DNA of 61,130 bases, taken from positions 1-61,130 of the IMG/VR virus record IMGVR_UViG_3300032050_000140; one strand, given 5' to 3'. The DNA is from a virus. Of the stretch, positions 8,440-61,130 are shown one piece after another; positions within the stretch are counted from its first letter, which is position 1, and the number at the start of each line of letters is the position of its first letter. Both the position numbers and the translations under genes were made by a program. Under the pieces are notes generated by a model that was not told where the DNA came from, searched no databases, and saw nothing but the letters and a program-made list of their open reading frames with translations.

Positions 8440-9006
8440 ATGAAAGTAAAAACATACCTGCCTCTATTCAGAGGTTTCTATGGATCACATTGGGATGATC
8501 CATGCTTCGATGGAGAAGAAGATATCTATAACCTACCAAATGACAAAGAGTTTTGGGAATTTGTCGATTGGAATGCATACCATGAACACATAGCAATAGA
8601 AATGTGCAACGAAGTACAATACCTTTTATCAGACTTTGTATCCGATATTGAATTCGAAAGAATAAGCAGTCCTAAATACTATAACTTCGAGAATGATTCA
8701 ATACATTGCGAGATAACATTTGATGAAGAAAAGGTAATGGAATACCTTAACGAAAATCAAGATGCATTCTCAGTCTATATAAGAGAGCGATATACATCAA
8801 GAGATGGTTTTATGTCATTCTACGAGAATAACGCTTTAGAATGGCTTGAAGGATGGCAGGATGATAACCATAAAGTCGGATCAATACTACAATTCATTTG
8901 TGAGAATGAAGGATTCGAAGAGCCATGGGATTTGAATGATTGCCACATCTCATTATTTTATAACCAACAAATCAACCAATATGAAAGAACAAATTTTAGC
9001 GACTAA
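8440..9006 (+). CDS. Acidic conserved phage protein, FRGFY family
   Basis: A 188-aa product from the TAGCC-preceded ATG at 8440; a longer frame uses a non-ATG start. It begins TYLPLFRGFYGSHWDDP, the LP-F-GFY opening seen in a family of acidic phage proteins of unknown function, and is strongly acidic and aromatic throughout. Acidic early proteins can mimic DNA, so an anti-host or anti-restriction role is conceivable, but nothing here proves it. The next gene starts inside its 3' end. Confidence 0.75.
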   Translation: MKVKTYLPLFRGFYGSHWDDPCFDGEEDIYNLPNDKEFWEFVDWNAYHEHIAIEMCNEVQYLLSDFVSDIEFERISSPKYYNFENDSIHCEITFDEEKVMEYLNENQDAFSVYIRERYTSRDGFMSFYENNALEWLEGWQDDNHKVGSILQFICENEGFEEPWDLNDCHISLFYNQQINQYERTNFSD

Positions 9007-55314: not shown

Positions 55315-55731
55315 TTAGTTATATACTCTAATCTCAATACTTGTCTTATTTAATTTATTATCTTGAGCTGCCCCTGAAGAATTATAAGTTATTAAACTTA
55401 ATCTATCTACATCACTAACACTAAAAGTATTTTCACCTGATGATGTTTGATTAATCATCAAATATGTTTTATTATTTGTAAATGCACCCAATAATGTAGC
55501 TAAATATTCTCCAGTTGTATCTCTAGCCCAAACAATATTTCCAATGGTGTTCTCTAGCACTATAGCAACAGGTGCGTTTGTTGACGTTTGAGTTAATAAA
55601 GCTGTATAAACTTTATATGTAGTGCTACTAAAGTTTGACATATCAAACTGAACTTGATCTCCATTTGAATCACTGCCAAATAGTCTATCACCTGCCGCAG
55701 GTAACTTTACTGGATAATTATTTACTTTCAT
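55315..55731 (-). CDS. Modular tail-tip protein, short version
   Basis: 138 aa. The first about 31 residues (VNNYPVKLPAAGDRLFGSDS then NGDQVQFDM) are nearly identical to the next gene upstream; the remainder is an unrelated beta-rich domain (VYTALLTQTSTNAPVAIVLE). The shared N-terminus probably docks to the same virion site while C-termini vary. A 95-bp near-identical DNA repeat underlies it. Confidence 0.75.
   Translation of the reverse strand: MKVNNYPVKLPAAGDRLFGSDSNGDQVQFDMSNFSSTTYKVYTALLTQTSTNAPVAIVLENTIGNIVWARDTTGEYLATLLGAFTNNKTYLMINQTSSGENTFSVSDVDRLSLITYNSSGAAQDNKLNKTSIEIRVYN
55637..55731. repeat. 95-bp repeat encoding the shared N-terminus (copy 1)
   Basis: Aligns with 56248-56342 with about eight differences. 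It encodes the common first 31 residues of two adjacent tail genes and could be a site for recombination that swaps C-terminal domains. Confidence 0.85.
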
Positions 55732-56342
55732 ATGCTAAATGTTCTTACAGCACGCACATAATAAGAGTTGTACTTAAAGTTGAAGCTGGCAAGCCCACTG
55801 ATGAAGTTGAAGTACCACGCGTAGTTGCTGATGTACTCCGTACTACTCCAATAGGAGGCATTACCTGTAAAACTATCTGTACCTAAAACTTTATTAACTA
55901 TAGCTGCTGAATTATAACACATGTTTAATTCCCAGTTTGAAGGTAAATACCAGTCATTATAACCACCACCAGAATGAAGTCTTGCTAAACCTGCCGCATA
56001 TGTATTTGCGGCTGGAGCAGTAGTTTGTGCTATAATAGCATTTGTATTACCTAGACCATCACTAAAGCTTTGAGCAGCAGGTCCTATAAGTGTAGATTGA
56101 AATGCTGGTAAAGCCCATTGAATACCAGTAGATAAGTTTGTTAAACTTGCTATAAGAGCTTTTTCAGTAGTACCTTCTTTCCAAAGAGCAACTACTATAC
56201 CTCCTCCTACAAGTTCTCCTATATAATGACTACCACCACCAAAATCAGTCATATCAAACTGAACTTGATCTCCATTCGAATCACTTCCAAATAACCTATC
56301 ACCTGCCGCAGGTGTCTTAACTGGATAATTATTTACTTTCAT
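55728..56342 (-). CDS. DUF1566 C-type-lectin-like tail protein (candidate DGR target)
   Basis: 204 aa. N-terminal docking module shared with the previous gene, then a DUF1566-type domain: GGYNDWYLPSNWELNMCYN and ASYWSSTEYISNYAWYFNF, ending YYVRAVRTF. That is the fold of Mtd-like receptor-binding proteins. The last 35 codons are unlike the rest, being dominated by TAC, ATC, AGC, AAC and TTC, as expected where AAC codons were mutagenised by a diversity-generating retroelement. It lies beside the lysis cassette. Likely the variable receptor binder. Confidence 0.8.
   Translation of the reverse strand: MKVNNYPVKTPAAGDRLFGSDSNGDQVQFDMTDFGGGSHYIGELVGGGIVVALWKEGTTEKALIASLTNLSTGIQWALPAFQSTLIGPAAQSFSDGLGNTNAIIAQTTAPAANTYAAGLARLHSGGGYNDWYLPSNWELNMCYNSAAIVNKVLGTDSFTGNASYWSSTEYISNYAWYFNFISGLASFNFKYNSYYVRAVRTFSI
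55750..55852 (-). other. Candidate DGR variable region
   Basis: Minus strand from TATTGGAGTAGTACGGAG to GTGCGTGCTGTA. Codons between are TAC ATC AGC AAC TAC, then TAC TTC AAC TTC ATC, then AGC TTC AAC and TAC AAC: nearly all differ from AAC only at positions 1 and 2. No second copy (template) is seen elsewhere in the window. Confidence 0.55.
56248..56342. repeat. 95-bp repeat encoding the shared N-terminus (copy 2)
   Basis: Second copy of the repeat at 55637-55731; begins the DUF1566 gene. Confidence 0.85.
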
Positions 56343-58137: not shown

Positions 58138-58374
58138 TTAAAATGGATTTGGTACTATAACTTCAAATGTTATTGGAGAACCTAAAACTATATCTAAACT
58201 TTTGTCATAAGTAATATACCAAAATATTGGATTATCTAATTCTGCTATTTTATAATCAACCCAATTTTGTGTAACGTCATCTGGTGAAACTGGAATGCCA
58301 TAATAAGCATCACATAATTCTCTTGCATTAATAGCATCCTGTTCATTCGTGTATTTGTAGCCAATTATTTCCAT
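58138..58374 (-). CDS. 78-aa tail-region protein
   Basis: EIIGYKYTNEQDAINARELC then DAYYGIPVSPDDVTQNWVDY. A small soluble protein found beside modular tail genes in similar phages, possibly a fibre assembly partner. Start coupled by TAATG to the 279-aa gene. Family not assigned. Confidence 0.7.
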   Translation of the reverse strand: MEIIGYKYTNEQDAINARELCDAYYGIPVSPDDVTQNWVDYKIAELDNPIFWYITYDKSLDIVLGSPITFEVIVPNPF

Positions 58375-59213
58375 TAGTATATTGAATAGTAAGTATTTAT
58401 ATTTCCATTTATTCCTGAAACATTAGCTGATTGATTTGTTGGATATATAATTATTTCAGAAACATATTTAATACCATTAAATGTATTACCAAGAGCAGCC
58501 CCTATACTAATTGGATTACTAAATGTTAAACCACTAAGTGTAGTTATTGAAGAAAAGGCATTATTATTTAATGAAATATTAGATACTGCTCCATTTCTAT
58601 AAGCAGAAATTAAAAATTTTGTATTATTTGCTATAGATGGGAAAACTCCATAAGGAGGATTTTCTTGTTTCCAACCCCCTCCAATTGTATTAGAACCATC
58701 TGTAGCTCTACCTAACCAAAATCCATATTGATAATTATTATCTATTAATCTTGCAGCAATTACTTCACCTGACATTTGTTTAGCTACTGCAAATATGCTG
58801 CTATCTCCAAATTGAAAATTAACAGATGTTATTAATTGTTTTGAATTAAAATAAACAGCTGGTAAACCAGTACTTAATAAATCAATAACTCCAGATGTTA
58901 CTATTGATGGCTGTGCAGTAGCAGTTGATTGAGTAACATTATTTCCATTTCCACTTTGATCATACCAAGTAGTCACAAAACCATTACTGGCACCTACAAA
59001 AGTTAATAATGAGGCAGTGTCTAAAACATTATTTACAAATCCTATATCTTGTTCCGTATTATCACTTGAACGTCTTACTCTTATACAATTACCAGTGTAT
59101 GCAGTTCTTAATTTTCTAAGTGAATAAGCAACTGTTGCACCTGAGTAAGTATCAAGAAGATAACTAAAGGGTGCTGCCTTAGGCATTAATGATATCAAGT
59201 TATAATAACTCAT
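58374..59213 (-). CDS. Tail adhesin with arabinofuranosidase-B/LamG-like fold
   Basis: 279 aa. LLDTYSGATVAYSLRKLRTA then CIRVRRSSDNTEQDIGF and TTWYDQSGNGNN are the signature of AbfB-like/LamG beta-sandwich tail proteins common in environmental phages. The rest is Asn/Ser/Gly-rich beta structure. Likely carbohydrate binding on the virion tail. ATGA overlap with the 147-aa gene. Confidence 0.8.
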   Translation of the reverse strand: MSYYNLISLMPKAAPFSYLLDTYSGATVAYSLRKLRTAYTGNCIRVRRSSDNTEQDIGFVNNVLDTASLLTFVGASNGFVTTWYDQSGNGNNVTQSTATAQPSIVTSGVIDLLSTGLPAVYFNSKQLITSVNFQFGDSSIFAVAKQMSGEVIAARLIDNNYQYGFWLGRATDGSNTIGGGWKQENPPYGVFPSIANNTKFLISAYRNGAVSNISLNNNAFSSITTLSGLTFSNPISIGAALGNTFNGIKYVSEIIIYPTNQSANVSGINGNINTYYSIY

Positions 59214-60546: not shown

Positions 60547-61130
60547 TTAAACTTGGCGAGCCAAGGCTGTGTTGAAATTTTGTACCGCTGTGTAAAAGTT
60601 AGCTGCTTCGGTGTCTGTTAATCCATCACCTATTGAGGCGAAAGCATAATTTCTTTGAGCGTAATATTGTGGGTTACCTTGAAAATTTATAGCTGCTAAA
60701 AATAAATTTACCTCACCTCTTGCTCCACTTGCACCAGTATATGTGCTACCTAATTGAACATTATTTTTAAATAATTTTAAAGAACTTGCAGATGTTCTTG
60801 TTCCAATATAAAAACCAGTTGAATTTGTGTTTGCTGTTATCACACCTACACCTCCATGAATATAAGCATAAGCAGTATTTGAATACCGAGCATATAAAGC
60901 ACTTACAGCAGATACCAATTGACCTCCAAAATCAAGACCACCTAAATCATTATTTGTTCTTGAATAAAAAGATAAATGAGCTGAATTATTTGTGTTAAAT
61001 TGAGTATTTGGATTGAACCCTGTATTTGCATAACCATTAGAGCCTGATGTATAACCATTAGAGTTATGTGTTGCAGCACCATTAAATGATAATTGATATT
61101 GAGCTGTATTCTTTAAATTATATGTATGTG
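60547..61130 (-). CDS. LamG-like tail/adhesion protein, C-terminal part
   Basis: Continuation of the gene that starts at 457 at the left end: the frame is open through the right edge and ends at 60547. FYIGTRTSASSLKLFKNN, then QYYAQRNYAFASIGDGLTDT and EAANFYTAVQNFNTALARQV are typical of the C-termini of LamG-like tail proteins in marine and gut phages. The 240-bp overlap with the left end lies inside this CDS. Confidence 0.85.
   Translation of the reverse strand, partial: HTYNLKNTAQYQLSFNGAATHNSNGYTSGSNGYANTGFNPNTQFNTNNSAHLSFYSRTNNDLGGLDFGGQLVSAVSALYARYSNTAYAYIHGGVGVITANTNSTGFYIGTRTSASSLKLFKNNVQLGSTYTGASGARGEVNLFLAAINFQGNPQYYAQRNYAFASIGDGLTDTEAANFYTAVQNFNTALARQV
60891..61130. repeat. Terminal redundancy, right copy
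   Basis: Identical to 1-240 except C at 61018 instead of T at 128. Marks circular closure of the sequence. Confidence 0.95.

Follow-up and report, generated by a model that had tools for sequence, protein, structure and literature searches.

In the diversity-generating retroelement (DGR) of Bordetella phage BPP-1 (mtd/avd/TR/brt), the variable repeat (VR) lies at the 3′ end of a phage C-type-lectin gene and differs from its template specifically at adenines, Avd and a reverse transcriptase (RT) belong to the system, and plasmid-borne DGR parts can serve an infecting phage that lacks them (PMC3240598). The locus described here resembles BPP-1 in each of these respects, action in trans on an infecting phage being an inference in our case, but BPP-1 encodes every part, whereas here the target lies in a phage and the other parts lie on a bacterial contig. 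Diversification of bacterial DGR targets in trans is also known within one genome (PMC10907252). In Thiohalocapsa PB-PSB1 (PMC10907252) and Treponema denticola (PMC4891356), VRs are located far from the RT and the template repeat (TR) and match the template at non-adenine positions, as they do here; in both organisms, however, target and machinery share one genome instead of being divided between a virus and a bacterium. C-type-lectin targets, some of them distant from the RT, likewise occur in Hankyphage (PMC6199706), Quimbyvirus (PMC8008677) and gut prophages with a second, distal VR (PMC12629997), but all of these carry RT and template. DGR surveys look for an RT beside its repeats, and by its own account the largest of them cannot detect remote targets (PMC8144416). 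A literature search, which did not reach most subscription papers and bioRxiv preprints, yielded no description of a host-chromosomal DGR serving a phage target.

The window analyzed is the whole virus record IMGVR_UViG_3300032050_000140 (61,130 bases). It has terminal direct repeats of 240 bp (1–240 and 60891–61130) differing at one base, which suggests either a circular map with a polymorphism or imperfect terminal repeats. Because of these repeats, and because its relatives are about 60 kb in size, the record is probably a complete genome. The terminase shares 70% identity with its counterpart in a circular podovirus genome of 60,850 bp from Manatee Spring, and about 43% with terminases of Flavobacterium elemo phages; together with the terminal repeats, this identifies the virus as a probable podovirus of Bacteroidota. 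The nearest cultured relatives have Flavobacterium and Cellulophaga as hosts, and a host assignment by tRNA could not be made, as no tRNA was found in the phage. The genome also encodes a virion-protein candidate (58374–59213), part of whose N-terminal half matches ArabFuran-catal (PF09206, E = 9e-10).

The presumed target gene (55728–56342, minus strand) codes for a protein of 204 aa that belongs to the Lcl_C/DUF1566 family (PF07603, E = 4e-14; 53.3 bits against a Pfam cut-off of 34.9). Its AlphaFold model (pLDDT 86) has its best PDB match in the C-terminal domain of Lcl (8q4e, E = 1.2e-6), and C-type lectins rank below with weak scores. The combination of a C-type-lectin fold and a C-terminal VR expected of a DGR target is thus supported by both the Lcl_C HMM and the model. 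The protein starts with an anchor of about 34 aa (56241–56342, minus strand), which is common to a downstream tandem paralogue with a different C-terminal domain (55315–55731, minus strand) and resembles the anchors in this slot of related phages. The slot, which lies upstream of the terminase, combines a conserved anchor of about 34 aa with interchangeable C-terminal domains in the phage, L108–L114 and L152. In L108–L114 a related anchor carries another C-terminal domain, and in L152, a close terminase relative (98% in the best segment), a similar anchor is joined to a different DUF1566 domain of the type that has ordinary codons in L045 and L046. The lectin domain of the phage (about 505 bp) is about 90% identical to that of L004–L006, which outside this domain are only weakly similar to the phage or unalignable. 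Given the varied domains in the slot and the conservation of this one between otherwise divergent genomes, we infer that the lectin module has been swapped between phages; the ordinary-codon DUF1566 domain in the same slot of L152 implies that the VR domain probably arrived recently.

The VR comprises 108 nt (55746–55853, minus strand, read from 55853 down to 55746), and its differences from the template of a bacterial contig, L087 (see below), are mostly at adenines. Its invariant 5′ anchor, TATTGGAGTAGTACGGAG (55836–55853, minus strand), is identical in the TR and VR of L087 and in those viral VRs that the search pattern retrieved. The conserved 3′ end, TATGTGCGTGCTGTA (55746–55760, minus strand), is a candidate IMH region, of which TATGTGCGTGC also occurs in the L087 template and in almost every viral VR. 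Seventeen of the 36 VR codons end in C, compared with 7 of 162 in the remaining lectin gene (Fisher p = 9e-10). The C3 fraction over 14 other long phage genes is 0.10, and the highest count of C-ending codons among 9,690 windows of 36 codons from these genes is 12. The bias towards NNC codons in the last 35 codons or so, which had led to the original prediction of a hypervariable lectin domain, is therefore real. The fold as such does not account for it, because Lcl_C relatives without the invariant DNA skeleton of the VR have only 0–9 C-ending codons in the corresponding 36. Ordinary codon choice and conserved residues at the same sites in relatives had been named as grounds for rejecting the prediction; they are indeed encountered in distant relatives, whereas relatives that share the domain vary at the adenine sites.

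The phage itself lacks the machinery for such variation. It had been described as showing no RT, Avd or template, and the six-frame HMM search proposed at the time agreed, as RVT_1 gave no match at E ≤ 10. A tblastn search of the phage with the L087 RT was equally without result, and no second copy of the VR or TR exists in the record. Consequently, neither an RT encoded with the target nor a template in the same genome, both of which would define a complete DGR, is present. RVT_1 was also absent from 39 further virus records (40 with the phage), most of which are fragments, so that these negative results are weaker than that for the phage. The L087 RT recovered its own genome as a control but had no match in viral records of 68, 79, 120 and 296 kb that contain such VRs.

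A matching template, proposed to be sought in bacterial genomes, was detected by a template-specific scan (purines at the variable places) of the GTDB genomes, which cover 84,980 species. Exactly one contig was retrieved, L087 (CANNJE010000181.1), from the Chitinophagaceae MAG ZH-Oct18-54, where ZH presumably stands for Lake Zurich. It contains a complete DGR cassette consisting of an Lcl_C target with its own VR, an Avd (bAvd, E = 1e-21; DivGenRetAVD, E = 2e-18), an RT (RVT_1, E = 3e-18) and a template of 108 nt (TAT TGG AGT AGT ACG GAG AAC GAC AAC AAC AAC GCG TGG AAC TTC AAC TTC AAC AAT GGG AAT GCC AAC AAC AAC AAT AAG AAC AAC ACA AAC TAT GTG CGT GCG GTT). Over the 108 nt, the contig's own VR departs from this template at 20 positions, all of them template adenines. 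Skeleton and Lcl_C target domain are shared with the phage, but the L087 target has a signal-peptide-like start in place of the phage anchor, and RT, Avd and TR are missing from the phage. Finding a template accompanied by Avd and RT in a bacterial MAG bears out the view of the phage gene as a DGR-style target separated from its cassette. It also favors mutagenesis in trans by a host among the explanations originally offered for the missing RT and, together with the RT-negative larger viral records, disfavors a compact unrecognized RT in the phage.

The neighbors of the cassette, a T9SS sorting-domain protein and a TetR-family gene, are typical of a Bacteroidota chromosome and point to a chromosomal location, although this is inferred from 4.5 kb. 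The template is known from this single MAG contig, whose GC content is 0.385 compared with about 0.366 in the other contigs of the bin, and L087 could be misbinned. In a scan of 396 genomes of Chitinophagaceae and 93 from the genus of the MAG, the skeleton was found in this MAG alone, apart from a VR with one mismatch (L090) in G134; the latter genome yielded no match to bAvd or to the L087 RT. An RT 66% identical to that of L087 is encoded in G462 (L105/L106, on C157), with no template-like repeat nearby; a GAGGTTT-type minisatellite adjoins it. The template had no match in 50,697 phage records (INPHARED) and 72,556 plasmid records (PLSDB). A relaxed scan of IMG/VR gave one match, L102, which was rejected as a viral template because it is a coding VR without an RT.

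Over the first 103 nt, the phage VR and the L087 template disagree at 18 of the 43 template adenines but at only 2 of the 60 remaining positions (p = 1e-6). Since part of the skeleton had been prescribed in the scans, the test was repeated for positions outside the search pattern, where 13 of 25 adenines but only 1 of 27 non-adenines differ (p = 8e-5); the confinement to template adenines that marks a DGR target is thus observed in both cases. In a pattern-free check, a 20-kb phage query against the 93 genomes of the MAG's genus had the template as its top match (E = 2.5e-20), followed by the MAG's own VR (E = 2.4e-16), all others being short, with E-values no better than 3e-6. In the 93 genomes, these 20 kb of the phage revealed neither a prophage nor a clear CRISPR-spacer connection to this genus. 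The exact template variant of the phage was not found either, the L087 template showing the two non-adenine differences and two more at the 3′ end. A hairpin, CCGCGAAGCGG, follows both bacterial VRs (L087 and L090) but lacks conservation downstream of the phage VRs. Only a 6-bp palindrome, ACCTGCGGCAGGT (55690–55702), is located after the VR of the window, 58 nt beyond the start of its 3′ anchor, and none is conserved in other phages. The palindrome might form a hairpin or cruciform, but support for this is weak, and since it lies in the anchor coding sequence of the next gene it may be a coincidence.

The skeleton is not restricted to this phage. A protein-based search produced relatives, a few of which had VRs sharing the skeleton, and when IMG/VR was scanned for the skeleton pattern, 25 contigs were identified, all of them containing VRs. 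The codon pattern, the template match, the near-confinement of differences to adenines and the lack of RT, Avd and TR are observed in the phage, and many other viral contigs present a like situation. Besides the phage VR, thirteen ungapped viral VR types differ from the L087 template at 13–24 adenines and at 0–3 other positions; in two of them, L081 and L086, all differences over the 108 nt are at adenines. In 15 VR genes, the 99 nt preceding the VR average 54% identity, while identity is 96.5% at non-adenine VR sites outside the pattern, 96% at VR third codon positions and 50% at template adenines. The phage and L005 are 99% identical directly upstream of the VR and 47% identical at adenine positions. 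Furthermore, the viral contigs L074 and L076 (98.6% identical) are distinguished by 21 substitutions within the 108-nt VR, 20 of them at template adenines, compared with 1.3% difference outside it. On the strength of these three comparisons we regard the variation as retrohoming-like. VR lengths of 111 nt (L004 and L006) and 117 nt (L063/L078) with a common skeleton imply that more than one template exists, but those templates were not found. In L079, a 79-kb viral contig, a second template match (8537–8644, 66% identity) beside the main VR is possibly a second VR. L086 (7830–8180), L074 and L076 encode short DUF1566 proteins of 116 aa with template-matching VRs, situated in a phage replication neighborhood instead of among tail genes; this neighborhood (helicase-like and uracil-DNA-glycosylase-like ORFs) was called by reading the ORFs, without a family search.

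We consider it likely, though well short of certain, that the phage lectin is diversified in trans by a host DGR. According to this model, the C-type-lectin protein, probably attached to the virion via its short N-terminal anchor, would have a DGR variable repeat in its last 36 or so codons, and the phage would carry this target alone. Template RNA, Avd and the adenine-mutagenic RT would be supplied by the DGR of a Bacteroidota host, of the ZH-Oct18-54 type. During infection, this DGR might produce adenine-mutated cDNA from its own template, which would then replace the phage VR just as it would replace the VR in the target gene of the host itself. The identity of the host, retrohoming on phage DNA during infection, the chromosomal position of the cassette and a role of the lectin in receptor binding are all inferred. 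Several observations speak against this model: the template rests on a single contig and is not an exact match, a conserved downstream hairpin is lacking, no prophage or clear CRISPR link leads to the MAG's genus, and the cultured relatives infect Flavobacterium and Cellulophaga. Moreover, the VR is identical in the phage, L001/L064, L002 and L003 (four contigs, 99.98–100% identical), so that no recent diversification is seen in this phage strain.

The main rival explanation holds that the lectin domain and its VR originated in a bacterium through the action of a DGR in cis, were captured by phages through recombination and then spread horizontally among them without further diversification. 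The mobility of the 505-bp domain between divergent surroundings would fit such a capture, as would the identical VRs in these four contigs and in the viral pairs L077/L083 and L065/L082. We nevertheless judge it unlikely, because VR differences between domain-sharing phages cluster at template adenines while the upstream domain remains 91–96% identical, and because L074 and L076 differ mainly in the VR. In addition, the presence of the skeleton in unrelated gene backbones would mean that a segment almost coextensive with the 108-nt repeat was exchanged again and again. The VR could also be the remnant of a complete DGR in a phage ancestor that recently lost RT and template, a possibility already contained in the original prediction and in keeping with the well-documented DGRs of Bacteroidota phages (PMC6199706, PMC8008677). 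It appears improbable, however, as the skeleton recurs in many viral VRs, mostly in unrelated contexts and never with a detected RT, and no IMG/VR contig, including the 25 matches and L102, shows a template with it; the domain in the L152 slot also makes the VR domain a probable newcomer instead of a relic.

If template and RT resided on a helper element in the same host, such as another phage, a satellite or a plasmid, the phage would still be served in trans, but not from the chromosome. The short L087 contig does not prove its replicon, yet its chromosome-like neighbors, the absence of the template from the phage and plasmid collections and the lack of any template with the skeleton in IMG/VR leave little room for this alternative. 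That codon usage or selection created the pattern without any DGR can hardly be entertained. Many residues around the VR are indeed conserved in Lcl_C relatives, but those lacking the skeleton do not show its C-ending codons, VR third positions are nearly invariant across genes whose upstream regions have diverged widely, and the match to the template contradicts such an artefact. Diversification in trans by a host DGR hence remains our preferred interpretation.

The phage VR matches a bacterial template except mostly at adenines, and the corresponding retroelement was found in a lake bacterium but not in any of the phages examined. These findings suggest that phages diversify a binding protein with a borrowed bacterial hypermutation machine. 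We lean, if only slightly, towards the broader view that orphan VRs in many unrelated phages are adapted to a bacterial chromosomal DGR template and that these phages share this diversification of binding proteins in trans, the VR length classes (108, 111 and 117 nt) recording the last host template met. If phages do use host DGRs in trans, phage hypervariability has been undercounted, a VR would serve to link phage and host, much as a CRISPR spacer does, and cellular DGRs would constitute a resource usable by parasites.
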